Notes under the pieces: generated by a model
Told to the model about the DNA's origin: nothing
Seen by the model: the letters and a program-made list of their open reading frames with translations, nothing else
The model's database searches: none
Shown here: positions 1,098 to 16,418 of the stretch, piece after piece
Layout of the letters: each line of letters opens with the position of its first letter
How positions within the stretch are numbered: the stretch's first letter is position 1
Made by a program: the position numbers and the translations under genes
Assembly: GCA_028706735.1 (NCBI GenBank)
Contig: JAQTVS010000020.1
Span: 1 to 16,418, forward strand
From: Thiomonas sp.
Lineage (GTDB): Bacteria > Pseudomonadota > Gammaproteobacteria > Burkholderiales > Burkholderiaceae_C
Length of the DNA stretch: 16,418 nucleotides
Direction of reading: 5' to 3'

Positions 1098-1130
1098 GCG
1101 GGCATTGTCTCTTGCCCGAATGCCGCATGT

Positions 1131-1333
1131 CTCCTGAGAGGGTGTGAACAAATCCGCCATGTCCGCTCATCGCACCCAAATCGTCCCACTCGGCGTTGCA
1201 AATGCGCGCCGTGCCGACGGGCACGGCTGTGCTTTGCGCCTGGATTGGAACCCTTTGGGCGCGCTGCTCGGCCACGCCGGATTCATTCACACCCTCTGAG
1301 AAAACGCCGGGCCGCCCCAAGTTTTCTCAGGAG
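1131..1333. repeat. 13-bp inverted repeat split by an insertion
   Basis: The right arm GTTTTCTCAGGAG is at 1321-1333. Its complement CTCCTGAGAAAAC is not contiguous. CTCCTGAG is at 1131-1138, and CTGAG plus AAAAC is at 1296-1305, on the far side of the insertion at 1139-1295. Removing the insertion and one CTGAG copy restores a perfect 13-bp stem with a 15-nt GC-rich loop. It may have been a terminator-like or operator hairpin between the patatin gene and whatever lay upstream. No long T-run follows on either strand, so its role is unknown. Confidence 0.75.
1139..1295. mobile_element. MITE-like palindromic insertion 1 (157 bp, CTGAG direct repeats)
   Basis: The ends are a perfect 10-bp terminal inverted repeat, AGGGTGTGAA (1139-1148) and TTCACACCCT (1286-1295). 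They are flanked by a 5-bp direct repeat CTGAG (1134-1138 and 1296-1300), which looks like a target-site duplication. The self-complementarity runs on imperfectly through the whole element to a central 8-bp stem, GCCGTGCC (1208-1215) and GGCACGGC (1220-1227), around a GACG loop. No transposase is encoded, so the element would need one supplied in trans. The family is not identified. An alternative reading is a structured remnant of a larger IS. Confidence 0.7.
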
Positions 1334-1708
1334 CAACGGCACGGCAACTCCGGAGGCCGCAGCCCCGCGCGCATCGACGCCCGCCTGCAAGCGGCCGCCT
1401 GCAAATGCCCGCGCACCTGAAACAGCACGATCAGCCCGGCGAGGATCGGCGCCGCAGCGGCAAGATAGAGAAACAGATTCTCGATGCGCTAGGAGCCTGT
1501 CGGGCTTGAGTCGCGTAGAGCGAAAAATGGGGGTGGGGATGGCCTGCGGCGGCGGATTTGCCGCCCCATAGACCAAGCTATGGGGCAAAAAGCCGCTGCC
1601 GCAGGACGCCGCACAGCCTTTTTGCAGCCCGCGATTCTCAAGTCCGACAGGCTCCTAGGGATTGGGCAGATTGAGCGCCAGGCTGCGGTCGGAAAATTCG
1701 CCGCTCAT
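1327..1708 (-). pseudogene. Possible remnant of a small membrane-protein gene broken by an insertion
   Basis: Downstream of the second zinc-ribbon gene, an ATG at 1708 (no clear ribosome site) opens a frame reading MSGEFSDRSLALNLPNP, which ends at a TAG at 1655-1657, where the insertion begins. On the other side of the insertion the frame from 1488 to the TGA at 1327-1329 reads RIENLFLYLAAAAPILAGL and onward for 53 residues. It contains one good transmembrane helix followed by an Arg/Cys-rich tail. The halves look like pieces of one short membrane protein. However, deleting the element plus one CTAG copy leaves an in-frame TAG at the joint, so the join is not clean. No family is recognised. 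It could also be two chance fragments. Confidence 0.3.
1493..1654. mobile_element. MITE-like palindromic insertion 2 (162 bp, flanked by CTAG)
   Basis: The terminal inverted repeats are GAGCCTGTCGGGCTTGAG (1493-1510) and CTCAAGTCCGACAGGCTC (1637-1654), matching at 17 of 18 positions. Each end is bordered by CTAG (1489-1492 and 1655-1658), which could be a 4-bp target duplication or part of the repeat, since CTAG is itself a palindrome. A second nested palindrome fills the middle: CCTGCGGC (from 1543) pairs with GCCGCAGG (to 1605), and CCCCATAG (1564-1571) pairs with CTATGGGG (1578-1585) around a six-base loop ACCAAG. No protein is encoded. Its ends do not resemble those of the insertion at 1139-1295, so the two belong to different families. 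Confidence 0.7.
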
Positions 1709-1758
1709 GGTGATCGATTGGGAGTTGAAAAAGCGCTGATGGGTGTTCCGCGCAAAGG

Positions 1759-2889
1759 CTATTTCAGCCTGTGGCCGCAACTGCCGCAGAACACATCGTC
1801 GGGCTGCACTGCGGCGCCGCACGCGGGGCAGTGCGTTGCCGCAGGAGACGGCTCCTCCTGCGGCGCAGGGGGCTGATCGGCCGACGGTTGAACGGGCGAT
1901 GCCGGGCCTGCAGACGGCGGGGCCACCGGCGCGGCGCGGGGTTTGTATTCATCGAGCTTTTGCTTGAACTGCGCCAGCTTCTGTCCCACCACGTCAGAGG
2001 CCTCGGAACCCACCCCTTCGCCAACAGCGCGGTACACAAAGATCATGCCCAGGACATAGATCAGGCTCACGACCGACCACGCCAGAAACCACACCAGGCT
2101 GATGGACAGTCCCGCGCCCCCCATGCCCGCTCCGCCCAGCGCCACACCTTCCATGCCGCGCATCCCGCCGAAACCACCAAAGCCCCCCATGCCCATGCCG
2201 CCGAAACTGCCTGCGGCGAAAAATCCACCGACGAACATGCTGCCCGCGAACACCACGGCAAAGATGAAGGCCACCGCCGGGAACACCAGCAAGCCGAGCA
2301 CCAGAAAGTGCATGAACACCTCCAGCGGCCGCTTGGTCACGATACCGACCGCACGCGACAGGCTCGCAATGAAGCCCTCGCCGTGCCACACCGCCGCGAT
2401 CATCAGCGGCCCGGCCAGCAGCAGCACGGCATAGGCCAGCGCCACCACCACAACCAGCGGCCCGCCGAGCAAAAAACCAAACAGCCCTCCCACCCCCGGA
2501 ATGCGTCCAAGCAGCGACAACAGATAAGCCGCCAGCAAGACCACCGCAAAGCCCAGCCCCAGCAGAATGAGCAGGCCAATGACATAGAGCGCCGACTGCA
2601 CGCCGCCCAGAAAGGCCGGGCCGAAGCCGCGGATCGGCTGGTCATACGCCTGGTCGATCAGCATCAGCCCGCTGGCATTCATGCCCACGATGATGATGAT
2701 GGCCCCCAGCAGACTCATGAGCATCATCACCGCCGCGCTGCCCGAGCTCGTGCCGGCCGCAGCGCCGCCACTGATGGCCAGCCCGCCCAGAACAAAGCTG
2801 CCAGCCAGCATGGCCAGCGCGCGCCAGTTGTGCAGCGCCTCATAGCTGCGCAGCAGCACGCCGAGGTTATTGGTGGTTTTCACAGTCAT
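1759..2889 (-). CDS. Polytopic membrane protein with C-terminal zinc ribbon
   Basis: The product is 376 residues, read from the ATG at 2889, which has a strong AGGGAGGAC ribosome site; the frame is open further upstream but without a comparable site. Hydrophobic segments give about six to seven membrane helices, roughly at residues 28-50, 53-72, 92-125, 130-165, 190-225 and 265-295. Between the last two lies an extreme Gly/Met-rich stretch (many GGMG and GGFGG units). A charged segment and a Pro/Ala-rich linker (about 310-350) lead to a C-terminal zinc ribbon with Cys354, Cys357, Cys368 and Cys371. The gene lies 44 bp downstream of another zinc-ribbon protein on the same strand, so the two are probably co-transcribed and may form a complex. 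No enzymatic motif is visible, and the function is unknown. Confidence 0.85.
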   Translation of the reverse strand: MTVKTTNNLGVLLRSYEALHNWRALAMLAGSFVLGGLAISGGAAAGTSSGSAAVMMLMSLLGAIIIIVGMNASGLMLIDQAYDQPIRGFGPAFLGGVQSALYVIGLLILLGLGFAVVLLAAYLLSLLGRIPGVGGLFGFLLGGPLVVVVALAYAVLLLAGPLMIAAVWHGEGFIASLSRAVGIVTKRPLEVFMHFLVLGLLVFPAVAFIFAVVFAGSMFVGGFFAAGSFGGMGMGGFGGFGGMRGMEGVALGGAGMGGAGLSISLVWFLAWSVVSLIYVLGMIFVYRAVGEGVGSEASDVVGQKLAQFKQKLDEYKPRAAPVAPPSAGPASPVQPSADQPPAPQEEPSPAATHCPACGAAVQPDDVFCGSCGHRLK

Positions 2890-2933
2890 GATGTCCTCCC
2901 TGGACGGTTGACGGCGCGAGGCGCGCCGCGCAG

Positions 2934-4238
2934 TTACGGGTTGTTGGGCTGTTGCGCCGAATTCGGACACTCGGCGACCTTGCCCCACAGCGGGTCAGGC
3001 GAGAGTGGAGCACCACAATATTTCCATCGTGTCTCCTGAATGCAGAGTTGCCGGGTGAAAAAATTGCCCTTCTGCTCGCAGGCGGCCAATCCCGCGCGCA
3101 GGGCCTCCACCCGCCCCACCGGCCTGGCAGGCGCGACGGGCGCGGGTTGCGCCGCAGGGGCGGGAGCTGGCTCGGCACGCCGCGTGGATTGCGACGCCTC
3201 CTCACGCACAGGCGCCGGTGCAACATGCGGCGCTGGCTTCGGGTGTTCTGTGCGCAGGGGCGCCGGCTTGAATGCCTCAGGACTGGACTTGGCAGCAGAC
3301 TGGCCGGAGAGCGTCGTCCGTGGCGCTGCAGGGGGAGCCACCGTGGGCGCGGCCTGCGGCATGGATGCGGGGCTCACAGGCGTCGGCGTTGCAGCCGAAA
3401 TCACAGCCGGAACGGCAGTTGCAGACGGACTGGCGGCGGACTCCGCGCTGCTGACCGCTGCGGGCGCGCCGCCCTTGTCCTGCTGCGGATGTTTCATCGC
3501 CCACCACAAGCTGCCCCCGCCAATCAGCGCAAACGCGATGGCCACGGTGGCGACGCCGCCGAAGAGCACCGCATTGCTGCCCTTGACCGCCTCGTGCACT
3601 GGCTCCGTGGGCGGGGACGACGTGGCTGGTGCGGCTGGACGTGGCCGCGCCTTGACAGCGGCTGCCGACGCCTCTGCCCTGGCGCGGATGTCCGCCTCCA
3701 GCCTGGCGGTTGCCGCACGCCGCTCCTCCTCGCGGTGAGCGCGTTCCTTCTGCGCCGCGGCCTCGGCCTGTTCCGCTGCCTGTTCCGCTGCCTGTTGCGC
3801 GGCTTGCTGTGCAGCCAGCTGTGTGGCAAGCGCCGCGGCGGGAGCCGACTCCTGTTCGCGTTGCTGCCGGGCCGCCAGGGCCTGCCGCGCCGCGGCAGTC
3901 AGCGCCGCCTGCTCGGCGTGGGCCCGCGCCCACGCCGCCTCGGCAAGGCGTCTGGCATCAGCCTCTTCCGACGCGTGCGCTGCATCCGCTGCATCCGCTG
4001 CATCCGCTGCATCCGCTGCATCCGCTGCATCCGCTGCATCCGCAGCATCAACGTGCTGCGTGTGATGCCGCTCCAGCGCCGCGCGCTCCACCGCGTCCTG
4101 CTGCGCGTCGGCCCCTGGCAACTCTTCCGCGCCCGGTGCCGCCTCCCCGTCATTGGGCATCATGGACGCACCACAGTGCTTGCAGAATTTGGCCGCGTCC
4201 TTGTTTTCTATACCGCATTGGGTGCAAAAGCGTGACAT
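2934..4238 (-). CDS. Zinc-ribbon, coiled-coil, single-pass membrane protein with DAA repeats
   Basis: The product is 434 residues; the ATG at 4238 follows GGAGAG at good spacing. In order: an N-terminal C4 zinc ribbon (Cys5, Cys8, Cys19, Cys22); an acidic linker; a run of Asp-Ala-Ala triplets (about residues 62-88) coded by a 9-bp tandem repeat; a long Ala/Gln/Glu/Arg-rich stretch likely to form a coiled coil (about 90-205); one membrane helix (about 222-248, ending WWAMKH); a Pro/Ala-rich spacer (about 255-375); and a compact C-terminal domain with four Cys (LAACEQ, RQLCIQ, WKYCG, AECPNS) that is probably extracytoplasmic. The zinc ribbon would face the cytoplasm. The C-terminal pattern resembles tails of other betaproteobacterial hypothetical proteins. 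The role is unknown; coupling to the next gene suggests an envelope complex. Confidence 0.85.
   Translation of the reverse strand: MSRFCTQCGIENKDAAKFCKHCGASMMPNDGEAAPGAEELPGADAQQDAVERAALERHHTQHVDAADAADAADAADAADAADAADAAHASEEADARRLAEAAWARAHAEQAALTAAARQALAARQQREQESAPAAALATQLAAQQAAQQAAEQAAEQAEAAAQKERAHREEERRAATARLEADIRARAEASAAAVKARPRPAAPATSSPPTEPVHEAVKGSNAVLFGGVATVAIAFALIGGGSLWWAMKHPQQDKGGAPAAVSSAESAASPSATAVPAVISAATPTPVSPASMPQAAPTVAPPAAPRTTLSGQSAAKSSPEAFKPAPLRTEHPKPAPHVAPAPVREEASQSTRRAEPAPAPAAQPAPVAPARPVGRVEALRAGLAACEQKGNFFTRQLCIQETRWKYCGAPLSPDPLWGKVAECPNSAQQPNNP
3979..4050. repeat. 9-bp tandem repeat coding for (Asp-Ala-Ala)n
   Basis: GCTGCATCC occurs seven times without a mismatch (3979-4041), followed by a diverged eighth unit GCAGCATCA. 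The unit is a multiple of three, so gain or loss of copies changes the length of the DAA stretch in the minus-strand zinc-ribbon protein without shifting its frame. Perfect copies imply recent expansion by slippage or recombination. Confidence 0.95.
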
Positions 4239-4338
4239 TGCAACTCTCCGTATCCGAATGGAGCCGATGGTAGCGAGGCGCCCGGCAGGCCCATGCCAAA
4301 CGCTGCACCCCGATATCGCGCAACAGGAGCCTGAATAC

Positions 4339-4376
4339 GCAAAAAGCCTGCCATCCTCTCGGACGGCAGGCTTTGC
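4339..4376 (-). terminator. Intrinsic terminator of groES-groEL
   Basis: On the minus strand, a 10-bp perfect stem (AAAGCCTGCC/GGCAGGCTTT; arms at 4365-4374 and 4343-4352) with a 12-nt loop is followed by a run of five T. It lies about 60 bp after the groEL stop and about 100 bp before the zinc-ribbon gene on the same strand. It should therefore insulate that operon from chaperonin transcription. Confidence 0.9.
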
Positions 4377-4433
4377 GATGGCCCGAACTGCCAGGGCAGT
4401 CGGACCAGCAAGCAGCAGACTCTGGGTCTGGAC

Positions 4434-6140
<1,707 letters not shown>

Positions 6141-6161
6141 TCAGCCCATCTGGATCTGGAA

Positions 6162-6452
6162 TTACTTCTCGATGACAGCCATCAGGTCGTCTTCGCGCAT
6201 CACCATCAGCTCGTCGCCGTCGACCTTGACGGTCTGGCCAGCGTACTTGCCGAACAGCACGCGGTCGCCCACCTTCACCGCCATGGCCACCAGCTTGCCC
6301 TGGTCGTCATGCTTGCCCGGACCCACGGCCAGCACTTCGCCTTGATCCGGCTTCTCCGCCGCGCTGCCCGGGATCACGATGCCCGAGGCAGTGGTGGTTT
6401 CTTGTTCGATACGCTTGACCACGACACGGTCATGCAGAGGGCGCAATTTCAT
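6162..6452 (-). CDS. groS: Co-chaperonin GroES (10 kDa)
   Basis: The 96-residue product has the standard GroES layout: [14 protein letters not shown] at the start, the mobile loop that docks on GroEL ([13 protein letters not shown], about residues 19-31), and the GEVLAVGPG and [13 protein letters not shown] strands. The ATG at 6452 follows AGGAG with good spacing. It is the first gene of the groES-groEL operon, with about 140 bases of untranslated leader between the CIRCE site and the start codon. Confidence 0.99.
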
Positions 6453-6589
6453 GCAAATCTCCTGAAGTTTGTGGAAAACCGGGCGCCTGCTTGGAGCCCA
6501 ATGACAAACCGCCTCCCGGACGATGCCCGGAACCGACGGCTAGAAACCCATTTTGAAGGCGCATGCAGGACAGTGCGATGACACGGCTG

Positions 6590-6616
6590 TTAGCACTCAC
6601 CTTCAACGAGTGCTAA
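6590..6616. promoter_or_regulatory. CIRCE operator (HrcA repressor site)
   Basis: TTAGCACTC (6590-6598), nine bases, then GAGTGCTAA (6608-6616) is an exact match to the CIRCE consensus. In known systems HrcA binds this inverted repeat and represses groESL; heat inactivates HrcA. Here it directly abuts the -10 box of the groES promoter. hrcA itself is not in the window. Confidence 0.98.
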
Positions 6617-6644
6617 TTATAGGGACGGACTTTCGGGTTTCAAG
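6616..6644 (-). promoter_or_regulatory. groESL promoter
   Basis: On the minus strand, TTGAAA (6638-6643) and TATAAT (6616-6621) are separated by 16 bp, giving a strong sigma70-type promoter. The upstream box extends to CTTGAAA, and CCTATAAT resembles the downstream half of a sigma32 promoter, so the start may also respond to the heat-shock sigma factor; that second reading is tentative. Transcription would begin within CIRCE. Confidence 0.85.
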
Positions 6645-6769
6645 AGGCCGTCCCGCAAGACTCCACGACTGCGGCCTGGATGGCCTGAACCCCTCCGTCG
6701 GTCGGCGCGCCTGCCTTGTCGATCCGGATTGCAACCGAATGTGCCCTGGGTAACGACACGAAAATTCCG

Positions 6770-6803
6770 ACCGTTCGTCGGATGATTGATACCGTTCGTC
6801 GGA
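6770..6803 (+). promoter_or_regulatory. LytTR/AlgR-type direct-repeat binding site upstream of the pilin operon
   Basis: ACCGTTCGTCGGA occurs twice without mismatch, at 6770-6782 and 6791-6803. The 21-bp period puts both copies on the same face of the helix. The 9-bp core ACCGTTCGT fits the LytTR-domain consensus (two repeats with about 12 bp between cores), and ACCGTTCGTC is the AlgR binding core known from Pseudomonas. The pair ends 56 bp before the ATG of the first pilin. In P. aeruginosa AlgR activates the equivalent minor-pilin operon, so an AlgR-like activator is the natural reading. No strong -10 box is visible downstream; a weak AACAAT lies at 6833-6838. Confidence 0.75.
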
Positions 6804-6859
6804 AAGTCTGCGGCGCATCCTGCCAGAGACGAAACAATGCGCGCAAGGAGAGTCCATCC

Positions 6860-7504
6860 ATGCAGCGCAACCGCGGTTTCACCCTGATTGAATTGATGAT
6901 CGTCGTGGCGATCATCGCCATTCTCTCGGCCATCGCCATTCCGGCTTACAACCAATATGTCACGCGCAGCAAGCTGACCGAGGCGTTCTCTGGGCTGTCG
7001 GGCATGAGCGTCGCCCTGCAGCAGTACTACCAGGACAACCGGACCTATGTCGGCGCCCCAATCTGCACGACGCCGCCCACTGCGAAAGACTACCAGTTCA
7101 GTTGCCAAACGCTGACCGCCACCGCCTTCACCCTCGCCGCGACACCGACGGGCAACCTGGCGGCCCCCAGCTACGCCATCGACCAAGACGGCAACAAATA
7201 CACCACCAGCGTGCCCGCCTCCGGTTGGGTCATGCCGCCCGGGGTGAACACGCCGCCCAGCACGCCGCCTCTGCCAGCCGGAACCACCGCGAACGGCTGG
7301 GCGCGCGATCAGTCCGGAAACACTTGGCATGTCCACTCTCAAGCTCCGTCAGGCCGGCTTCACCCTCATCGAAATGATGGTGACCATCGGCATCGCAGCC
7401 ATCCTCGGCCTGATGGTCGTGCCCAATCTAGTGAGCATGGTCGATTCCGGCAAAACCTCGGTGCTGGTCAACAAGTTTCCGCAAGACGTGGCCTGGGCGC
7501 GTAA
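6860..7504 (+). CDS. PilE-like type IV pilin with abnormally long C-terminus
   Basis: The ATG at 6860 follows AAGGAG (6845-6850). The short leader MQRNRG is cut before FTLIELMIVVAIIAIL, a textbook class III (prepilin peptidase) signal with Glu at +5. The body matches PilE-like minor pilins: QQYYQDNRTYVGAPIC, FSCQTLTATAFTLAATPTG and YAIDQDGNKYTTSVPASGW. Relatives end soon after that with a CW...C disulfide loop; here that loop is absent. The frame instead continues for about 58 codons over the start of the next gene, reading Arg/His/Pro/Gly-rich sequence that looks like out-of-frame translation. The native protein may end near residue 157, which would imply a lost stop, a frameshift or a sequencing error. 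First gene of the pilin operon. Confidence 0.88.
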   Translation: MQRNRGFTLIELMIVVAIIAILSAIAIPAYNQYVTRSKLTEAFSGLSGMSVALQQYYQDNRTYVGAPICTTPPTAKDYQFSCQTLTATAFTLAATPTGNLAAPSYAIDQDGNKYTTSVPASGWVMPPGVNTPPSTPPLPAGTTANGWARDQSGNTWHVHSQAPSGRLHPHRNDGDHRHRSHPRPDGRAQSSEHGRFRQNLGAGQQVSARRGLGA

Positions 7505-7811
7505 TCAGGCGGTAACTACGCAGCAGCCGGTCACTATCACCCTTGGGGCAAACAACACCTGCACCTGGAGCACCAGTGTCGGCGGTACGGTGATTGCGGA
7601 GCACTCGATGTCGCCGAGCCAAATCGCAGCCAGCTACCCGAACGTGTCCTGCAGCATCACCGGTGGCAACACGCAGACGCTCACCTTCGATAGCCAAGGT
7701 TTCATCAACACGGCGCCCACCATCACGGTCACTGCTGCGCAAGGCCAGACCTGGACGTTGCAGGTGCTCGCCTCGGGCAGTGTGATTCTCAACGCCAACA
7801 CCGCATCATGA
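7329..7811 (+). CDS. fimT: FimT/GspH-type minor prepilin
   Basis: The 160-residue product begins with leader MSTLKLRQAG, cut before FTLIEMMVTIGIAAILGLMVVPNL, with Glu at +5. The globular part has the GspH/FimT pattern (VAWARNQAVTTQQPVTI, LTFDSQGFINT). FimT/FimU-type pilins help prime assembly of the type IV pilus at the inner membrane. The prepilin signal fixes the start at 7329, so the 176-nt overlap with the preceding pilin frame cannot be explained by mis-choosing this start. A GGAAA lies about nine bases upstream. Its TGA overlaps the ATG of the next gene (ATGA), suggesting translational coupling. Confidence 0.9.
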   Translation: MSTLKLRQAGFTLIEMMVTIGIAAILGLMVVPNLVSMVDSGKTSVLVNKFPQDVAWARNQAVTTQQPVTITLGANNTCTWSTSVGGTVIAEHSMSPSQIAASYPNVSCSITGGNTQTLTFDSQGFINTAPTITVTAAQGQTWTLQVLASGSVILNANTAS

Positions 7812-8314
7812 CGCGCCCATCCACTTCCCCTGCCCGCGCCGCAATGCATCAGGCCGGCATGTCGCTCATCAGTGTGCTGGTTGCCATCGTCATCTTCGGC
7901 CTGGGGATGCTGTCGATCGCATCGCTTTATAGCCTGGCCGTGCCGGCACAGACCGCCAACCAGGAAACGCTGGACACCGCAGCTTTCGGCAACCAGTTCT
8001 GGGCCATTCTGCAGGCCAGCCCGCAGGTGGTGTCGCAGCTCGGCGCGGGCGTCACGCAAAGCTACAGCAGTGCATCCGCAAGCGCCCCCGCCGCCCTGCA
8101 ACCGTGGCTGGCCAATATTTTCAACAGCCCATCCATGATGCTTCCAGGCGCCAAGGTCACCATCACCACCGGAGCGGGCGCCGACGGCAACCCCTGCGAT
8201 GTGAGTAACCCCAATGCGCCGCTGTGCGGGGTGACGCTGACCATCGCCTGGGCCGCAGGCAAGGGCGGTGGCGGCGTGCGCAGCCAGACCTATCAATATC
8301 AGGCGGGCTTCTGA
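7808..8314 (+). CDS. pilV: Minor prepilin PilV, with Ser instead of Glu at +5
   Basis: The 168-residue product sits at the pilV position between fimT and pilW. The leader ends QAG, followed by MSLISVLVAIVIFGLGMLSI, the typical PilV/GspI helix. The residue at +5 of the mature protein, normally Glu (SLIEVLVA), is Ser here. Glu+5 is normally needed for methylation and for docking between subunits. Alternative start: Met13 (7844) would leave a five-residue leader. The first ATG overlaps the fimT stop and has no ribosome site of its own. PilV is part of the priming/tip complex with PilW, PilX and PilY1 in P. aeruginosa. Confidence 0.9.
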   Translation: MTRPSTSPARAAMHQAGMSLISVLVAIVIFGLGMLSIASLYSLAVPAQTANQETLDTAAFGNQFWAILQASPQVVSQLGAGVTQSYSSASASAPAALQPWLANIFNSPSMMLPGAKVTITTGAGADGNPCDVSNPNAPLCGVTLTIAWAAGKGGGGVRSQTYQYQAGF

Positions 8315-8315
8315 C

Positions 8316-9632
8316 ATGCGACACCTCTCCACCCCCCTTTCCTTATCCGCCGCCCGCCGCCAGCACGGCCTGAGCCTCATCGAGTTGATGGTGGCCCTGG
8401 TCATCGGGCTGATCTTCGCCATCGCCGTGCTACTGGTGCAGTCGTCCCTCACCAAGCAGAACGTGCAGATGAGCGACGTGATGCAGAGAGATACCCAGAC
8501 CCGCGCCGCGCTCGATCTGATTAGCCGCGATCTGTCCAACGCCGGGTTCATGCTCGGCGGCGTGCAGTCGCGCTGCAGCATGCTGCTGGCCTACGACAGC
8601 AGCATCGGCGGAAGCCAGCCGTTTGCGCAGTACCCAGTCTCTGCTGCGTCGCAGCCGATGGCCCTGCCCACCAGCACCACAGCAGGCAGTGCCTACTACC
8701 CCAGCATCACGCCTGACCCCTCGGTCTATGGCACCAACCAGCAGTTCACCGACATGCTGTTTTTTACCGGTGCCACCAGCGCGCTGCAAACGCCAGGCAA
8801 CGGCAACCCCACCGCTTACGTCGTGCAGAACTCCACCACCAAAGCCGACAACGGCCAAGGCACGCTCAACAGCAGTGAACTGCCCCTGGGTTCCACCGCA
8901 GGCCTGAATGTGGGCGATGCTGCACTGCTGCGCATGCCGCTCAATGGGAAACTGGTGTGTTTCCGGGTTCCTATCGCCTATATCGGACCCAGCACTTCAC
9001 CCTCATCCACTTATATCAATAGCAATAGCAGCACACTGTTTCCCAGCACTGGTTACGCACCCTTCAACAACCAGCTGATCGCTGCCGGGGCGCTGCCGCC
9101 CGGCGGCATGCTGACCAATCCGAATTTCGTGCAATCGCGCCTTACCGACCTGGGGCCGCAAACCAACAGCAACGTGCAGACCGTGGTCTATTACATCGCC
9201 CAATATGCGAATGCGGGTGGCGGCTCCTACCCAGTGCTGGTGCGCGCCGTGCTCAATGCGCAGACCGACGCGCTCATGAGCCCGCCAGTGCCCGTGGCGG
9301 CCGGCGTGGTCAGCCTGCAGGCGCTGTTCGGGGTAGATGAAAACAACTCCGGCAGCGTGACCAATTACCTCACATGGCCCGCCGTCGTAAGCGGCCAGTA
9401 CACAGCAAATGTGCGCAGCGTACTGTTCGCGCTGGTCACCAAATCGCTGCAGAACGACACCGGCTACACCGCGCCTGCAACCATCGCCCTGCCCAGCCCG
9501 AGCCTGGGCCCGGCACAGTTCACCCCCTACACCGTGCCCACCGGCGCTGGCGGTCTGCTCGACTACAGCCACAACCATTTTTCCGTCATCGAATCCGAAT
9601 TTGCCGTTCGGAACCAGCTATGGCCGCACTGA
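8316..9632 (+). CDS. pilW: Minor prepilin PilW
   Basis: The 438-residue product has a leader ending RRQHG, cut before LSLIELMVALVIGLIFAIAVL (Glu+5 present). It then shows the PilW pattern MQRDTQTRAALDLISRDLSNAGFMLGG, a large beta-rich body, the GVDENNSGSVTNYL segment where PilW proteins often carry an Asp/Asn-rich loop, and the C-terminal FAVRNQLW. An upstream in-frame ATG at 8268 would lie deep inside pilV, so the ATG at 8316, one base after the pilV stop, is used; AGGCGGG precedes it. The last 13 bases overlap pilX. It is longer than many PilW proteins, mostly through Ser/Thr/Pro-rich loops. Confidence 0.93.
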   Translation: MRHLSTPLSLSAARRQHGLSLIELMVALVIGLIFAIAVLLVQSSLTKQNVQMSDVMQRDTQTRAALDLISRDLSNAGFMLGGVQSRCSMLLAYDSSIGGSQPFAQYPVSAASQPMALPTSTTAGSAYYPSITPDPSVYGTNQQFTDMLFFTGATSALQTPGNGNPTAYVVQNSTTKADNGQGTLNSSELPLGSTAGLNVGDAALLRMPLNGKLVCFRVPIAYIGPSTSPSSTYINSNSSTLFPSTGYAPFNNQLIAAGALPPGGMLTNPNFVQSRLTDLGPQTNSNVQTVVYYIAQYANAGGGSYPVLVRAVLNAQTDALMSPPVPVAAGVVSLQALFGVDENNSGSVTNYLTWPAVVSGQYTANVRSVLFALVTKSLQNDTGYTAPATIALPSPSLGPAQFTPYTVPTGAGGLLDYSHNHFSVIESEFAVRNQLWPH

Positions 9633-10225
9633 CCCCCAACCTGACGCGTCGCGACGAGGGGGGCTACGTGCTGCTGCTCACTCTCATCACCTTGGTGGTG
9701 CTGCTGTTCGGCGTATTGTTCACCATGCGCGGAACACTGCTCCAGGGGGTGATGACCGGCAACACCGTGCAGCGGCAGAAAGACGTGCAGGCCGGCGATC
9801 TGGCCTTGCGGCAGGTGCAGCAGGCGATCATCCAAACGGCAAGCGGCGCAGGCGATGTGCCACTGGAAATCGCCGCAAACGGCGCGTCCTGGTTCTACCT
9901 CCCGCCCAATACCAGCAGCCCGTGGGCCGTGCCTGGATCGAGCGCTGCCTCCACCTATTGGCAGAGCTGCCAGGCCGCCAAAACCTGCGACACCTTGAGC
10001 AACGTGGCCAGCGCCATCAGCCCTGCACCGCCAGCGATTGCCGCGGGCTACACGGCTCTTGTCACCGTCGTGCCAACCAATTTGCCAACCGACGCCTACA
10101 GCTGCGGCACGACCGGATTCACCGCGAACTATTACGACATTTTTCTGCATGTGCAGGAAGCCAACGGCCAGACGGGAGTCAACACCGAAAGCGTGTTCAA
10201 ACTCTGCACACCGGGGTCCTCTTGA
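9620..10225 (+). CDS. pilX: Minor prepilin PilX
   Basis: The 201-residue product starts at the ATG at 9620 inside the end of pilW. The leader ends RRDEGG and the mature helix reads YVLLLTLITLVVLLFGVLF. The absence of Glu at +5 is normal for PilX/GspK-like subunits. The QRQKDVQAGDLALRQVQQAI stretch corresponds to the conserved PilX N-terminal helix region, and paired Cys (QSCQAAKTC, YSCGTTG, KLCTPG) could form disulfides. PilX works with PilW to incorporate PilY1 in known systems. Fifty-eight bases separate it from pilY1, with no strong promoter visible. Confidence 0.9.
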   Translation: MAALTPNLTRRDEGGYVLLLTLITLVVLLFGVLFTMRGTLLQGVMTGNTVQRQKDVQAGDLALRQVQQAIIQTASGAGDVPLEIAANGASWFYLPPNTSSPWAVPGSSAASTYWQSCQAAKTCDTLSNVASAISPAPPAIAAGYTALVTVVPTNLPTDAYSCGTTGFTANYYDIFLHVQEANGQTGVNTESVFKLCTPGSS

Positions 10226-10283
10226 TACGGCTCCAGCATTTACTCACAGTGACCACCCTTGATTCTTGAATGGATTGCCCATC

Positions 10284-13265
10284 ATGACCACTCAATCTCT
10301 GCTACGTCGGATCATGATCTGGCTGAGCGCAGGCATCGCGCTCAGCACCATGCTGGCTTTTGCCTTTGCCCAGGCACAGACCGCAAATGTGCTGCAAGAG
10401 GATTTCACTGGAGCAGCGCCAAATTTGAATTGGCATTCCTTCGGTGGAGCCTGTTTAACTGCTGGCTCTGCCACCAATAGTGGCCCCAGCGGGGCCAGCA
10501 ACACCGGCATTCCAGCGTGCTTGGGCGATAGTTACTACGCAATGGGCGTTCTGTCGTATGGAGCAACGCCAACAACACCAGCGCAAACACAAACCGGGCT
10601 GACCAACAACCAAGATGCTCCAGGGCAAGGCGCCCTCCGACTGACGAACGGCTGCGCGACCGTCGGCGGAACCAACGTGTGTTACCTCCAACAGGCTGGC
10701 GCAATCATCCTGGACCAGACATATCCCTCGAATCAAGGCATCCGGGTGACATTCACGACCTACACCTATGGAGGCGATGGCAGCGGGGGTCATGGCGCAG
10801 ACGGTATCGGGTTCTATATCTTGAATGGCACAGCAACCCCAAATGTTGGTGCGTGGGGAGGAAGTTTGGGGTATAGCTGTTCCAACACGAATTATCCGTA
10901 TGACGGCATGAGTGGTGCCTATCTCGGCTTGGGGATGGATGAATTTGGAAATTTCCTCAATCAGGGCGATAACACCGGAACAGGAATTAATCCAACCTCA
11001 TCCCCAAACCAACAAAATCCTGGAGAAATCGGTATTCGCGGCTACGGAAATATCAACCTCGCAGCACTCAACGCCATAAAGGGCGGCGCCACGGCTGCCG
11101 ATGTGCGAAGCACCTGCAAAAATGGCGGCTCATATGGTGGAAAAACGCTGCCAGACTATCAATTGGTTCCTCCCGGTCCTAATGGTTACCCAACCGGGCT
11201 GGCGATTGCAAATGAATCGGCCACAACGCGCACCGCAGCGACACCCATTACCTACACGCTTGAGATCACACCCAATGGCCTACTCAGCCTTTGGTATAAA
11301 TACAATGCGACAAATACAGTGAGCGGGTTTGGCACACCAGTTCTCACCAATGTCAGCATTGCTGACCCGGCTTTGTATGGCCCTATGCCATCGACATTTC
11401 GCTTTGGTTTCGGCGCGTCCACTGGAGGTAGCGACAACGTTCACGAAATTACCTGCTTCCAGGTCGTACCGGCCACGCAGGCAGTCACGTCGCCTGTTGC
11501 CCCGGTTTCGATCTCGGGCGGCAGTTATATCTACTCGTTGAGCAGCGATCCAAACCCCATTGCAGGTCACGTTCAGGCGTATCAAACCGTTGCGACGCCA
11601 ACCTCAAGCGCAAGCGCGCCGCTAGGCACAGCTTCCGGCAACCCCGTGTGGGATGCGGGCGATGCAACCCACATGTCGGGCAGCACCCGCGCGACTAGTC
11701 TTTACTCCACCTCAACAACCCCTACGGGTGGCCAGACCGGCTCGGGGAGCCAAAAGCTGATCACTGCCCTTGACTCAGCCGCGTTCGGCACATGGACGAC
11801 TTCTACTTGCCTACCCTCTGGAAGTACCGGCATTGGAATCATCCAGTCTTACACCATCGATCCCAATTACACCAACGGCACCTGTAGCTATCTTGCAGGA
11901 CGCAAGGCGGGGTGGATGCTGGGTGGAATGAGCAGCAATGACGCCGCTGCGTTTTTGGGCGCCCCGGGCAATGCCAACTTGCTCAACCTGCCTGGCTATG
12001 TGGCTTTTGCCCGGGCAAACAGCAGTCGCGAGAAGGCCGTTTTGTTCACCAGCAACGATGGTTTTCTCTATGCGGTTGATGCCACAAGCGGCAATCTGAT
12101 TTGGGGCTGGATGCCACGCCCATTTGTCGCCTCACTGGGTAATGCGCCCGGCCTCGTGGGCGCGCTTTGCGGTAATCCGAATACCAATGGCGCCTGCTTT
12201 GACGGCCAGTTTGTGACTGCTGACGCCGTGAATACAACTACCGCGCCGACTGCCAGCAACTGGTCCACTTATGTCGTCGGAACCGCTGCCGGTGGGGCAT
12301 ATCACTACGCTCTGCAGCTGGCTACAAATACCTCGGGCGCACCGATGCCCAGCAAACAAACTTGGGGAATCAGTGTGACAAACGGCAGTTCCCCACAAGA
12401 GCAAGCGCCCGTCATTGCCACCATCAATGGCCAGCAGTATGCAGTGTTCACTGTCAACACCACAACCACCACAAGAGGGACGACAACGACCACGAGCAAG
12501 CTGTATGAAGTGAATGTTGCAACTGGAGCCAATTCTGCATTTTCTGCAACGCTGCCCTTCATCGCCAACAGTTCCATCACCTATGTACCGTCCACTGGCA
12601 CGCTGTGGATGGGAGATACAAAAGGTGGCGTGTGGAGTTTGAACGTGTCCGGTTCCGCGTCGACTGATGCGAGCGGATCTGTGAAAGTTGCGGCCATGAC
12701 TCCAGCAGACCCGGTAAATTTTGTGGGATATACCGAAATTGGTGGGCTACCTTACATTTGGGCCGCGTCAAAAAAAGAAATTGAGGCATTTTCTCTTTCT
12801 GGAGCAAACTCTCAGCCGATCTGGGCAAGCGCAGGCGGCAGTTCCCCAAGCGGATATTTGCCGAATAATTCGGGGGGCCTCGCCTCCAACACCGCCGTCA
12901 TGGCCTTGCAAGTCAATGGGGAAATTTCCGCTGCCCCAGCACTAATCAACGGCGTGCTAGTGGTCCCGGTCTATGTCCCGCCCACTGGAACCTGTGGGGA
13001 AACTGGCACTGGTTATTACGACTTGTTCGATTTGGTGAGTGGCGGGCTGCCGAAAATACCAATTACCTACAAAAATAATGCTGTCACCAATGGCGTTATT
13101 TCACTGGGTTTAGGCATCCCATATACGCCTTCTTATACAGTGACCGCCTCTGGCACGCTGGTTTATCCCGGCAACAGCCAGCCGCCCTCTCCCGCGCAAG
13201 GGATTAACCCAATTGAGTTCGGTGGCAGCGTGATGAACAAACCCATCGCCTGGCGCCAATATTGA
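10284..13265 (+). CDS. pilY1: PilY1-family pilus tip protein with N-terminal lectin-like domain
   Basis: The product is 993 residues from the ATG at 10284; a TTG at 10266 is a less likely start, and neither has a strong ribosome site. A signal peptide ends near AFAQAQ (about residue 31). Residues about 35-395 look like an L-type (legume-type) lectin fold: HGADGIGFYIL, GGSLGYSC, GAYLGLGMDEFGNF and the closing FGFGASTGGSDNVHEITCF. The PilY1 C-terminal part follows: NPVWDAGDATH (about 455), the propeller strand KAVLFTSNDGFLYAVDATSG (about 583), TLWMGDTKGGVWSLN (about 773) and the end KPIAWRQY. PilY1 sits at the pilus tip and acts in adhesion and surface sensing. The usual vWA domain is absent, and no Asp-rich calcium loop precedes the GDTKGG strand. 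The gene is visibly AT-richer than its neighbours. Confidence 0.9.
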   Translation: MTTQSLLRRIMIWLSAGIALSTMLAFAFAQAQTANVLQEDFTGAAPNLNWHSFGGACLTAGSATNSGPSGASNTGIPACLGDSYYAMGVLSYGATPTTPAQTQTGLTNNQDAPGQGALRLTNGCATVGGTNVCYLQQAGAIILDQTYPSNQGIRVTFTTYTYGGDGSGGHGADGIGFYILNGTATPNVGAWGGSLGYSCSNTNYPYDGMSGAYLGLGMDEFGNFLNQGDNTGTGINPTSSPNQQNPGEIGIRGYGNINLAALNAIKGGATAADVRSTCKNGGSYGGKTLPDYQLVPPGPNGYPTGLAIANESATTRTAATPITYTLEITPNGLLSLWYKYNATNTVSGFGTPVLTNVSIADPALYGPMPSTFRFGFGASTGGSDNVHEITCFQVVPATQAVTSPVAPVSISGGSYIYSLSSDPNPIAGHVQAYQTVATPTSSASAPLGTASGNPVWDAGDATHMSGSTRATSLYSTSTTPTGGQTGSGSQKLITALDSAAFGTWTTSTCLPSGSTGIGIIQSYTIDPNYTNGTCSYLAGRKAGWMLGGMSSNDAAAFLGAPGNANLLNLPGYVAFARANSSREKAVLFTSNDGFLYAVDATSGNLIWGWMPRPFVASLGNAPGLVGALCGNPNTNGACFDGQFVTADAVNTTTAPTASNWSTYVVGTAAGGAYHYALQLATNTSGAPMPSKQTWGISVTNGSSPQEQAPVIATINGQQYAVFTVNTTTTTRGTTTTTSKLYEVNVATGANSAFSATLPFIANSSITYVPSTGTLWMGDTKGGVWSLNVSGSASTDASGSVKVAAMTPADPVNFVGYTEIGGLPYIWAASKKEIEAFSLSGANSQPIWASAGGSSPSGYLPNNSGGLASNTAVMALQVNGEISAAPALINGVLVVPVYVPPTGTCGETGTGYYDLFDLVSGGLPKIPITYKNNAVTNGVISLGLGIPYTPSYTVTASGTLVYPGNSQPPSPAQGINPIEFGGSVMNKPIAWRQY

Positions 13266-13408
13266 TTGGAACGGCGCCGCCAACCCGGCAGCGCCTTGTG
13301 GGTTTTCCTCCACAGCGCGCCACTGGTTTGTGCCGCATTTCACAAAACCGGCCACGCGCTGAAGTGCGGCCCTTGTTACGTACTGGGTGGCGGCGCTACA
13401 AAGCTTGC

Positions 13409-13885
13409 ATGAACCTGTCCACCCCCTCCTGCACGCCTAGCATGCGCTCGCGCGGCTTTACCCTGCTGGAGTTGATGATGGCCATCGCCCTGGTGGGCGT
13501 GCTCACCGCCATCGCCCTGCCGATTTACAGCGGCTACCGGCTCAAGGTTGAGAATGCGCAGGCGCAGCAAGATGTGGTGTCCATCTCTGCGGCCATCCAG
13601 AATTACTGGGTTTACAACCGCACGCTGCCCAACTCGCTGGCCGACATCGGCATGGCGGGAAAGCTCGACCCCTGGGGCCACGCATATGTTTACTACAACA
13701 TTGAGGAAAACGGCAAAGGCCACGCGCGCAAGGACAAGGCGCTCAACCCCATCAACACCGACTTCGATCTCTACAGCATGGGCGCGAACGGGCAGACTAA
13801 ATCGCAGATCAGCAACAAGGCCAGCCTCGACGACATCATCCGTGCGAACAACGGCGCGTATATCGGTCTGGCCGCCAATTACTGA
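13409..13885 (+). CDS. GspG-like minor pilin closing the PilY1 operon
   Basis: The 158-residue product has a leader ending RSRG, cut before FTLLELMMAIALVGVLTAIALP (Glu+5 present). The body follows the major-pseudopilin GspG pattern: YWVYNRTLPNSLADIG, LDPWGHAYVYYNIEE and FDLYSMGANGQT, then a tail SLDDIIRANNGAYIGLAANY. GspG proteins bind calcium through this C-terminal loop. In many betaproteobacterial operons this position is annotated pilE, but the C-terminal disulfide loop of PilE is absent. Two starts fit: 13409 (16-residue leader) and 13442 (5-residue leader); neither has a clear ribosome site. It follows pilY1 by 143 bp, a gap that holds only a weak AACCC/GGGTT hairpin. Confidence 0.87.
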   Translation: MNLSTPSCTPSMRSRGFTLLELMMAIALVGVLTAIALPIYSGYRLKVENAQAQQDVVSISAAIQNYWVYNRTLPNSLADIGMAGKLDPWGHAYVYYNIEENGKGHARKDKALNPINTDFDLYSMGANGQTKSQISNKASLDDIIRANNGAYIGLAANY

Positions 13886-13913
13886 GCCCGTGGTCTGCGC
13901 CTCTGACTTCCCC

Positions 13914-13939
13914 TGCGGCGCTACGCCGCATTGTTGTTG
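13914..13939 (+). terminator. Hairpin with T-rich tail after the pilin operon
   Basis: TGCGGCG (13914-13920), loop CTA, CGCCGCA (13924-13930) form a perfect 7-bp stem followed by TTGTTGTTG. It lies between the last pilin and the GGDEF-EAL gene and overlaps the latter's upstream region. It could terminate or attenuate transcription into that gene. The tail is not a pure T-run, so strength is uncertain. Confidence 0.55.
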
Positions 13940-13946
13940 AGCGCCG

Positions 13947-16418
13947 ATGCGCCCGCCGCGCCTGTCCGCCTGGTTTTCCGGCAGCCGTTTGGGGCGCCAG
14001 TTGTTTGCGTTGTTTGTCGTCGCGGCCCTGGCGCCGCTGGCGCTGTCGGACTGGTTGTCGAGCACGGCGGTCAATCAGGTGGCGCGGCAGCTCAATGTGC
14101 AGAGCCAGCAGCGCATGACCCGGCAGGTGAGCCGTCAGGTGTTCGACCGTTTGCTCACGGCCAAAACCCTGCTGCTCGCCTTGCCGTCCTCTGCGCCGCA
14201 GTCTGACGCGCAGCCCCCGGGTTTAGGGCGGGTGTTTGACGCGCTGCTGCTGCAAACGCCGGAGGGCAAGCCAGAATGGGCCTCCGCCAACGCCGCCAAT
14301 CTGTGGCGCAACTGGCAGCGCGCCTTCCCCGCCATTCCGCCGGCTCAACCCCTCATGGATGCCAGCGCCGGTTTGACGCAGGTGTTGTTGCGCACGCATA
14401 GCGCGACGGGCGAGCCAACACGGGTCTACCTGGCCGCTTTGCAAAATAGGCAGCCGCGGTGGATTGCAGAACTCAACCCGCAATTCCTCTGGGGCCCGGT
14501 GCACGATGCGATGGATGGCGGCGTGTGGAGCGTGCGCAATGCCGAAGGAACCTCGCTTTACCCCGTTGCCAACGTCACCGCGCCTGCCGCCCAACGCGGC
14601 GCGGCGGCCGACTCGGTGTTTCGCTTTCAGCTCTTTCTCGGCGGCGAGTTTGGCGCTCCAGACTGGCTGTTCATTCAGCAAGCGCCGCCGCCCCGCGTGA
14701 GTTGGCTGGGCTGGCCGCTGGCGGTGTGGCTGGGCCTCGTAGCGGCGGCCACGCTGCTGCTGATCGCCCTGCTCGCGCAGCGGCAGATTCGCCGCACGCT
14801 GGTGCCGTTGGAACAACTCACCGCGGGCACACGCAGCCTGGCCGCGGGCGACAACAGCGCGCGCGTGCCAGTGCACAGCCAAGACGAGTTCGGCGTGCTG
14901 GCCGGTGCGTTCAACGACATGGCGGCCAAGATCGGCGCGCAGTTTCATGCGCTGGAAGGGCTGGCCGCGATGGACCGCGACATTCTGTCGGGCGCTTCGG
15001 TAGACAGCCTGGCCCGGCGCGTGCTCGATCAACTCGAAGGGCTCTACCCCAAGGCCAGCGCTGCGGTGATCTGGCAGAAAGAGCCGCAAAATTTCCGCCG
15101 CGCCGTGCTGTGGCAAGACGGCAAGACGCACAACACTGTGTTCGACGTGCGCGATGTGGCCTGCGGTGCGGTCGCCCAGTCTCAATGGTCAGGGCTGCAA
15201 GGGGATCGGCAGTTTCAGATCAACCATGCGGGCGAAGACGCCCTGCGCGACGCCCCCTGCCTGCGCAGCCTCATGCCCCCTGCGGCCGACTGGGTGGCGC
15301 TGCTGCCGCTGCGGCAGGGCGAAGCGGTGCAGGCGCTCATCGCCCTCGGCCTGCCTGCCGAGCCCGCCGCGGGCGAGTTGCAAGCCGCCGCCGAGGTGCG
15401 TGACCGCCTGGCCGTGGGTCTGGCCGCGCAAGACCGCGAACGGGCGCTGCAGCATCAGGCCACGCACGACAGCCTCACCGGCCTGCTCAACCGCCACGGC
15501 CTGCACGAAAAGCTCGACGCCCTGCTGACGCCTGGGCAGACCGTCGCCCCGCTGGCCTTGCTCTATATCGACCTCGACAACTTCAAGGAAGTCAACGACA
15601 GCCGCGGCCATGCTGCGGGCGACGCGCTGCTGTGCCAGGCCAGCGAGCGGCTGCGCACCCGTCTGCAGGCCAACGGCATCGTGGCGCGCCAGGGTGGAGA
15701 TGAGTTCACCCTGGTGCTGCCCTTGGCCGACGCGGCCACGGCGCAGGCCGTTGCGGACATGGCGATTCGCGCCCTGCGCGAGCCCTTCGATCTGGCGGGC
15801 GGCCCGGTTCAGGTGGGCGCCAGCGTGGGCATTGCCCTGTGCCCGCAGCATGCGCGCGAGCGCAACGAACTGCTGCGCTGCGCCGACATCGCGCTATACG
15901 CCGCCAAAGCCTATGGCCGCGGCCGCGCCCAACTGTTCAACCCCACGCTCGATGCCGAAGCCCGCACGCTGGCTCAGTTGCTGGCCGACCTGCGGCAGGC
16001 GCTGGAGCGTGGTGAATTTGTCGCCCACTATCAGCCGCGCGTCAACGCCGCCAATGGCCGGATCACCTCCGCCGAGGCGCTGATCCGGTGGCATCACCCG
16101 CAGCGCGGGCTGCTGTTGCCCGATGCGTTCATTGCCGTGGCCGAGTCGTATGGGCTGATCGAGCCCATCGGCCGCTGGATGCTCGACGCCGCCTGCCAGC
16201 AGATGGCGATGTGGCTGCGCGCAGGCATCGACATTGCGCGGGTCTCGGTCAATGTCTCCGCCGTTCAGCTTGAATCGGGCGCACTCGTGGGGCAGGTGCA
16301 AGACGCGCTGGCTCGCCACGCCATTCCGCCCGCCACGCTCGAACTCGAATTGACCGAAAGCCTGCTCGTGGACGAAAACGACGCGCTGTTCGCCCAGCTT
16401 TACGCGCTGCGCGACATG
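13947..16418 (+). CDS. Membrane GGDEF-EAL cyclic-di-GMP protein, C-terminus cut by window edge
   Basis: 824 codons are visible from the only possible ATG (an in-frame TGA lies at 13938-13940). Order: membrane helix (about 17-38), extracytoplasmic sensor region (about 40-250), second helix (about 252-275), HAMP (about 276-330), a GAF-like region (about 335-495), GGDEF (about 505-665) and EAL (from about 675). The GGDEF domain has THDSLTGLLNR, YIDLDNFKEVND and an intact GGDEF at 583-587. The inhibitory RxxD site is missing (QANG in its place). The EAL domain has EALIRWHHP (Glu710), SVNVSAVQL and LELTES; later catalytic residues lie beyond the window. It may therefore make, break or only sense cyclic-di-GMP. 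It lies 61 bp after the pilin operon on the same strand, which fits control of pilus-based attachment. Confidence 0.95.
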   Translation, partial: MRPPRLSAWFSGSRLGRQLFALFVVAALAPLALSDWLSSTAVNQVARQLNVQSQQRMTRQVSRQVFDRLLTAKTLLLALPSSAPQSDAQPPGLGRVFDALLLQTPEGKPEWASANAANLWRNWQRAFPAIPPAQPLMDASAGLTQVLLRTHSATGEPTRVYLAALQNRQPRWIAELNPQFLWGPVHDAMDGGVWSVRNAEGTSLYPVANVTAPAAQRGAAADSVFRFQLFLGGEFGAPDWLFIQQAPPPRVSWLGWPLAVWLGLVAAATLLLIALLAQRQIRRTLVPLEQLTAGTRSLAAGDNSARVPVHSQDEFGVLAGAFNDMAAKIGAQFHALEGLAAMDRDILSGASVDSLARRVLDQLEGLYPKASAAVIWQKEPQNFRRAVLWQDGKTHNTVFDVRDVACGAVAQSQWSGLQGDRQFQINHAGEDALRDAPCLRSLMPPAADWVALLPLRQGEAVQALIALGLPAEPAAGELQAAAEVRDRLAVGLAAQDRERALQHQATHDSLTGLLNRHGLHEKLDALLTPGQTVAPLALLYIDLDNFKEVNDSRGHAAGDALLCQASERLRTRLQANGIVARQGGDEFTLVLPLADAATAQAVADMAIRALREPFDLAGGPVQVGASVGIALCPQHARERNELLRCADIALYAAKAYGRGRAQLFNPTLDAEARTLAQLLADLRQALERGEFVAHYQPRVNAANGRITSAEALIRWHHPQRGLLLPDAFIAVAESYGLIEPIGRWMLDAACQQMAMWLRAGIDIARVSVNVSAVQLESGALVGQVQDALARHAIPPATLELELTESLLVDENDALFAQLYALRDM

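Follow-up and report, generated by a model that had tools for sequence, protein, structure and literature searches.

Among the proteins proposed as touch sensors of type IV pili, PilY1 is a leading candidate; sensitivity to force probably resides in its von Willebrand factor A (vWA) head, a view toward which PMC9210963 also points. In Pseudomonas aeruginosa, this large protein is encoded among the minor pilins and joins a variable N-terminal head, here of the vWA type, to a propeller-type body (3HX6), in which a DxDxDxxxD loop binds Ca2+. Earlier publications describe both the modular nature of PilY1 heads and type IV pili with a lectin at the tip. For PilC/PilY1, 68 modular architectures with varied N-terminal modules have been described (PMC8179133), PilC of Streptococcus sanguinis binds glycans (PMC9934059, PMC8179133), and one PilY1 head of Myxococcus xanthus was proposed to bind sugar with Ca2+ (PMC9109919, PMC11046646). 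The current work concerns a pilY1-like gene of Thiomonas sp., contained in a stretch of 16,418 nucleotides (assembly GCA_028706735.1, contig JAQTVS010000020.1, positions 1 to 16,418, forward strand), which is called the window. The source genome amounts to 2.93 Mb in 425 contigs and is 92.5% complete. The gene probably encodes a tip protein of a type IVa pilus, of the PilY1 kind, in which the vWA head has been replaced by a Ca2+-dependent L-type lectin. It begins with ATG at 10284 and its stop codon ends at 13265; an upstream TTG at 10266 is a possible alternative start. The counterpart of the gene in Thiomonas bhubaneswarensis is 85% identical. Its parts are as follows.

10284..13265, + strand: pilY1-like gene, 993 residues, read as a signal peptide, a putative L-type lectin head and a divergent PilY1 body (from the open reading frame and the operon position)
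10284..10376, + strand: hydrophobic N-terminus taken as an export signal, residues 1-31 (judged from the sequence, without a predictor)
10377..11474, + strand: putative L-type lectin head, residues 32-397
11475..13262, + strand: body, a divergent PilY1-type tail, residues 398-993 (hhalign; no match to PF05567)

The original prediction named three L-type-lectin-like motifs near the N-terminus. All three are present, and they lie inside a domain that matches the Pfam family Lectin_L-type_dom (PF18483; E 8.1e-5, 23 bits, with the window head scanned alone). Relatives extend this result. From 100 relatives found, 80 loci were kept as the kin set, and 71 of these, together with the window, L021 and L029, form an alignment of 74 heads (codes with L denote loci, and those with G genomes). 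At E<=0.01, Lectin_L-type_dom was found in 54 of the 74, Lectin_legB in 10 and Lectin_leg-like in eight, and the best PF18483 match reached E 6.4e-13. The head profile also matches lectins in the PDB (E 3e-7). The fold predicted for the head is the sandwich of L-type lectins, a concanavalin-type jelly roll, as the original prediction expected, and the 50 matches listed in each of two fold searches were all described as lectins, lectin-type carbohydrate-recognition domains or cell-surface adhesins. Neither of the outcomes that would have counted against the original prediction, a different fold or the failure of every lectin profile, was seen. One segment set in the analysis used 27 of 37 eligible segments.

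Some results weigh against this assignment. The 23 bits of the window head lie below the curated PF18483 cut-off of 78.3, and an AlphaFold run from five sequences was poor (predicted local distance difference test, pLDDT, 52.5). A PDB search with a five-sequence head profile gave no lectin, and the full-length window protein found no match in Pfam, NCBIfam or PDB. Chance likeness of the motifs was considered and rejected, since profile, fold and conservation agree. Taken together, profile and predicted fold support the head of the pilY1-like gene as an L-type lectin domain.

The body is more divergent. The original prediction called it a PilY1 propeller; likeness to PilY1 stands, through remote homology, operon position and the tails of kin, while the known propeller family and its Ca2+ loop were not recovered. 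Comparison of 11 Thiomonas-type tails with 30 canonical PilY1 tails by hhalign gave a probability of 96.0 and E 4.5e-9 over columns 172-387, with NDGFLYAVDA and WMGDTKGGVWSLN placed opposite NDG-x-LHGF and YAGDxxGNVWRFD of PilY1. Among the lectin-headed kin, 67 tails were scanned, the set of 80 being reduced by seven open reading frames cut at contig ends, L078 (short tail), L041, L042, L049, L057 and L098; 60 of the 67 match PF05567. The seven that do not are presumably the seven Thiomonas-type tails of this set (L043, L044, L045, L046, L050, L055 and L116; 29 loci scanned), L043 being confirmed as one. The 67-tail profile, with its seven divergent members, matches 3hx6 at E 8e-94, and the profile of Thiomonas-type tails alone did not reach 3hx6 in the PDB.

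Against a propeller of the known kind stand two facts: PF05567 is absent from the window protein, tail 398-993 included, and the DxDxDxxxD loop, which every one of the 30 canonical lectin-headed tails has, occurs in none of 26 Thiomonas-type tails, whichever head they carry (window, L019-L028, L043-L046, L050, L055, L116, L125-L128 and L130-L133). The body therefore falls outside the PF05567 family. Because of the profile-profile comparison, the operon position and the 60 of 67 same-head tails that match PF05567, the body is best supported as a remote homologue of the PilY1 propeller that probably works in a PilY1-like manner. The operon position is that of a minor-pilin operon of a type IVa pilus, running pilin, fimT, pilV, pilW, pilX, pilY1-like gene and pilE, with groEL upstream of the pilin genes on the opposite strand:

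6860..7504, + strand: major-type pilin (Pfam, PF16732 and N_methyl); the stop is missing at the end point of its kin and the frame continues into that of fimT
7329..7811, + strand: FimT/GspH-type minor pilin (PF12019)
7808..8314, + strand: PilV-type minor pilin (N_methyl; TIGR02523 at 30 bits, below cut-off)
8316..9632, + strand: PilW minor pilin (PF16074, E 9.8e-14, scanned from 8313)
9620..10225, + strand: PilX minor pilin (PF14341, E 0.0043, below cut-off, scanned from 9629)
13409..13885, + strand: PilE-type minor pilin (N_methyl and T2SSG)
13947..16418, + strand: HAMP-GGDEF-EAL protein (Pfam), truncated at the window edge

The claim that the lectin stands in place of vWA is borne out by loci of the same genus, where a vWA-type head follows the same upstream genes. 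A Thiomonas-type tail was found in nine of 13 genus genomes (no match in G004, G007, G009 and G012). Four of the nine carry the lectin head (G000, G001, G006, G008) and five a head of about 560 residues (G002, G003, G005, G010, G011). In all nine loci pilX precedes the pilY1-like gene; pilE follows it in seven, and a full HAMP-GGDEF-EAL homologue stands after pilE in six, with a partial match only in G005. Upstream, groEL was found in seven loci, the contigs of G001 and G010 ending before its position is reached.

The alternate head is assigned to the PilY1 vWA type because of its motifs, such as VILVTDGLPT, and its homology to L140, a PilY1 head of another genus with the full DNSQSMD motif (E 8e-17 against the alternate head L028). 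A vWA-type profile matched strongly in all five other-headed genus genomes and in none of the four lectin-headed ones (G000 and G001 are incomplete); L028 itself, from another genus (G025), matches it at 1e-219, the profile including L028. Conversely, the five vWA-type genomes gave a match to the tail but none to the lectin head, and in G005 the head-profile search likewise gave none. In Pfam, VWA was weak in three of seven alternate heads (E 0.16, 0.038 and 0.039), one of which also gave VWA_2 at 0.0033, and neither family matched any of four other PilY1 heads, all with a DxSxS start; Pfam VWA is thus of little use for recognising the heads of PilY1. In the PDB the vWA-type profile found a single chain, a putative secreted protein, as a partial match (E 3.1e-4).

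Several further observations were made on these heads and their relatives. The first Asp of DxSxS in the metal-ion-dependent adhesion site (MIDAS) is missing from all six aligned vWA-type heads on the Thiomonas-type body (GNSQSMD in L022, L023, L025 and L026, GNSESMD in L024, TNSQSMD in L028), and the L140 head retains it. A second, PF05567-matching PilY1 lies at another locus in G005 (L134, head without Pfam match), G006 (L135) and G008 (G008:C2:345204), and none was found in the incomplete genome of the window. L137 (948-4049) encodes a PilY1 with a head of about 1000 residues and a PA14 match slightly below cut-off, possibly another sugar-binding head. G011 also holds a second, divergent cluster of minor pilins and a PilY1-type gene (L027, G011:C30), which matched the vWA-type profile weakly in one search (3.4e-7) and not in another.

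How the two heads came to occupy one locus may be read from the flanks. The DNA of G003 (vWA) aligns with window 6834-10213 and breaks off where pilX ends; the match returns weakly at 11557 and firmly over 11958-16418. The DNA of the lectin-headed G006 and G008 aligns as a single block. The GGDEF protein of G001 (lectin) is nearest to that of G002 (vWA; 84%, against 68-73% to other lectin species), and that of G008 (lectin) is nearest to that of G003 (vWA; 77%). Since flank similarity contradicts head type, the gene has probably been exchanged. Lectin-headed tails are 80-86% alike within the genus, and lectin and vWA tails differ by 36-49%; therefore an exchange would have taken in most of the gene rather than the head alone by a clean swap, and the intermediate tail of G003 likewise shows that the break does not fall neatly where the head ends. 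In a tree built from 26 tails (L124, L129 and L057 omitted as copies; "vWA" labels every row without a lectin head) the head type changes twice, two changes being forced by well-supported branches (2-3 in the bootstrap), and under midpoint rooting the Thiomonas vWA clade sits among lectin-headed tails.

The strongest competing explanation is that lectin-headed and vWA-headed genes go back to an old duplication, after which different lineages retained different paralogues and lost the other. In its favour, identity between the tails of the two head kinds is no more than 51-64% within the genus; the vWA-headed G010 and G011 show no pilE and no GGDEF gene in the 2.7 and 4.6 kb examined downstream; and G193 and G274, of another genus, combine a lectin head with a vWA-type head encoded at a second locus. 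Against exchange also speaks the DNA match of G002, G005 and G011, whose gap is wider than that of G003 or which lies in pieces. This explanation is credible but rather unlikely, as the constant upstream neighbours, pilE after the gene in seven loci, the G003 flank aligned right to the head edge, and the pairing of flanks across head types all run contrary to it. The most likely course, then, is recombination at one locus that replaced most of the pilY1 gene together with its head and in several species left the minor pilins and the neighbouring gene for a cyclic di-GMP (c-di-GMP) enzyme in place. Bacteria seem to change the target of the pilus by such head exchange. In the downstream DNA of G010 and G011 (L024 1-2652 and L026 1-4625) different genes were seen, and one open reading frame in each shares a MYLERIKRIY stretch.

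A candidate Ca2+ and sugar site can be outlined in the head, where protein numbers equal head numbers plus 31:

10794..10814, + strand: GADGIGF motif with Asp173 (Asp in 74/74 heads), pairing with ADGIIFFI of peanut lectin
10857..10874, + strand: GGSLGY loop with Gly192/193 (both Gly 74/74), pairing with GGGTLG of peanut lectin
10938..10970, + strand: DEFGN...D with Asp219, Phe221, Asn223 and Asp229, candidate Ca2+/sugar ligands (from conservation and the peanut-lectin alignment)
11406..11459, + strand: last lectin strand, GFGASTGGSDNVHEITCF, in which head residues G350, N354, H356, E357 and C360 are invariant (74/74)

Asp173 is presumably the counterpart of the sugar-binding Asp of legume lectins, and the GGSLGY loop, by role, that of their GGxLG loop; ADGIIFFI is aligned with the head consensus ADGI.F. 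Asp219 and Asn223 pair with D and N in VEFDTYSN of peanut lectin, where the head consensus reads LG[IM]DE[YF]GN. Asp219, Glu220 and Phe or Tyr at 221 occur in all 74 heads, Asn223 and Asp229 in 73 each. Asp229 may correspond to a legume Ca2+ ligand, judged by the order of residues. Both the triad of Asp, Gly loop and Asn that serves monosaccharides in legume lectins and the Ca2+ ligand set Asp...Asn...Asp are thus present by sequence, and if roles carry over from legume lectins, the head would bind metal and sugar.

The fold could instead serve a protein, a mineral or no particular ligand, the conserved Asp and Asn merely holding a structural Ca2+. Fold sharing alone shows no function, and two points tell against the sugar reading: the Glu of VEFD, an Mn2+ ligand in legume lectins though not common to all L-type lectins, gives way to Gly in all 74 heads, and noncanonical legume-like lectin adhesins are reportedly the subject of a 2023 paper by Clark, to go by its title (cited in PMC7616799). 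Conservation, however, is not confined to the Ca2+ ligands: the Asp expected to contact sugar is invariant, as is the loop GGxLG, and the Asn nearly so, which makes a ligand other than sugar improbable. That the head is a concanavalin-like enzyme cutting polysaccharide is very improbable, for although the superfamily includes glycosidases, and the PilC module class is named lectin/glucanase in PMC9934059, the fold matches listed were of the lectin and adhesin kinds given above and no glycosidase family was found among the 74 members at E<=0.01.

With a sugar-binding lectin as the preferred reading, a course of events may be proposed. The N-terminal signal would direct export of the protein; the body would dock on the minor pilins, PilX among them, and prime pilus assembly; and the lectin would project at the pilus tip by way of the minor pilins, as in M. 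xanthus (PMC11046646). There it could bind polysaccharide, either of the matrix of its own cell or its neighbours or another surface glycan, with Ca2+ held by Asp219, Asn223 and Asp229 and with Asp173, the Gly192-193 loop and Asn223 as sugar contacts, after which retraction would pull the cell. The neighbouring c-di-GMP enzyme may be a read-out, although the two vWA-headed loci named above have no such gene in the downstream DNA examined. A bolder proposal, which falls short of probable and is put forward tentatively, is that the pilY1 locus is a site of allelic exchange between sugar and other ligands, that with a body devoid of the Ca2+ loop the control by Ca2+ has shifted from the propeller to the lectin head, and that a PilY1-dedicated lectin subfamily spreads this choice across Beta- and Gammaproteobacteria.

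The lectin head recurs on PilY1-type proteins of other Beta- and Gammaproteobacteria. Genera with lectin-headed kin include Ralstonia, Cupriavidus, Chromobacterium, Dyella, Variovorax, Rhodanobacter, Aquabacterium and Aquitalea. The head lies at most 62 residues after a start codon in 80 of 80 kin loci, partly by construction, as starts were sought within 75, and the open reading frame extends past it in 78. At least two prepilin-like open reading frames, defined by a motif pattern of our own, flank 76 of the 80 on the same strand, against three of 80 on the opposite strand. In overlapping genome samples, the head profile at E<=1e-10 matched 18 genomes out of 250 in the family, 10 out of 369 in the class and nine out of 299 in the phylum. 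The survey of fusions suggested by the original prediction found full-length heads in 11 of the 250 family genomes, all 11 within PilY1-type open reading frames: PF05567 accompanies the head in G027, G132, G210 and G235, and the other seven (G000, G006, G008, G068, G102, G193 and G274) have a Thiomonas-type tail. Strong head matches of the class sample besides the window (G289, G594 and G637, partial) all share a frame with PF05567; among weaker partial matches in the three samples, only the second one of G068 does. PF05567 itself was found in 205 of the 250 family genomes, and none of 14 control genomes matched. A mobile head derived from plasmids or phages was rejected, tblastn giving no phage match and one weak plasmid match (29%). 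A viral fold library gave one match at E 4e-9, to an uncharacterised phage protein, and otherwise weaker ones.

Natural substitution of a lectin for vWA at a single locus lets touch sensing and gripping be told apart. Should c-di-GMP still rise in lectin-headed species when they touch a surface, sensing does not require the vWA head; otherwise the vWA head may be required. Thiomonas, known as a genus of environmental bacteria, also offers ready-made natural head swaps for studying how pili choose their targets.

Some features elsewhere in the window are recorded here. The approximately 60 extra residues of the pilin frame 6860-7504 within the fimT frame are either a real extension or a sequence error; in kin the pilin ends after DQSGNT (G006) or after DQSGDC or DQSGNC (others), the window pilin has no stop there, and the C-terminal Cys is missing in the window and in G006. 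On the - strand, eight Asp-Ala-Ala repeats (3978-4049) lie within the open reading frame 2934-4238, which begins with a zinc-ribbon-like pair of CxxC motifs. An Rfam scan gave no matches.

Compared with P. aeruginosa PilY1, the window protein carries an L-type lectin head instead of vWA, on a body beyond PF05567 and without the DxDxDxxxD loop. The head itself differs from legume lectins, ERGIC-53/VIP36 and YwfG in its length (366 against about 230 residues), extra loops, an invariant Cys and the lack of the Mn-site Glu. In open-licence PMC full texts no L-type lectin head on PilY1 was found, as far as the available portions go, and the 68 architectures of PMC8179133 may include one. The vWA domain of Acidithiobacillus thiooxidans PilY1, 540 residues long (PMC6322766), is close in size to the vWA-type head of Thiomonas. 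In Acinetobacter baumannii the head of the tip adhesin ComC also varies within the genus, the cassette to which it belongs having been replaced at least twice, yet a vWA fold persists in every variant described there, the differences lying in an inserted finger (PMC10374093). M. xanthus likewise has PilY1 bodies with different heads, PilY1.1 with DUF4114 and PilY1.3 with vWA, but as separate paralogues in one genome and with DUF4114 rather than an L-type lectin (PMC9109919, PMC11046646). S. sanguinis places both a concanavalin-like lectin (PilC) and a vWA module (PilB) at the type IV pilus tip (PMC9934059, PMC8179133); there, as described, the modules sit on two coexisting minor pilins, whereas in Thiomonas they alternate on one PilY1-type body.

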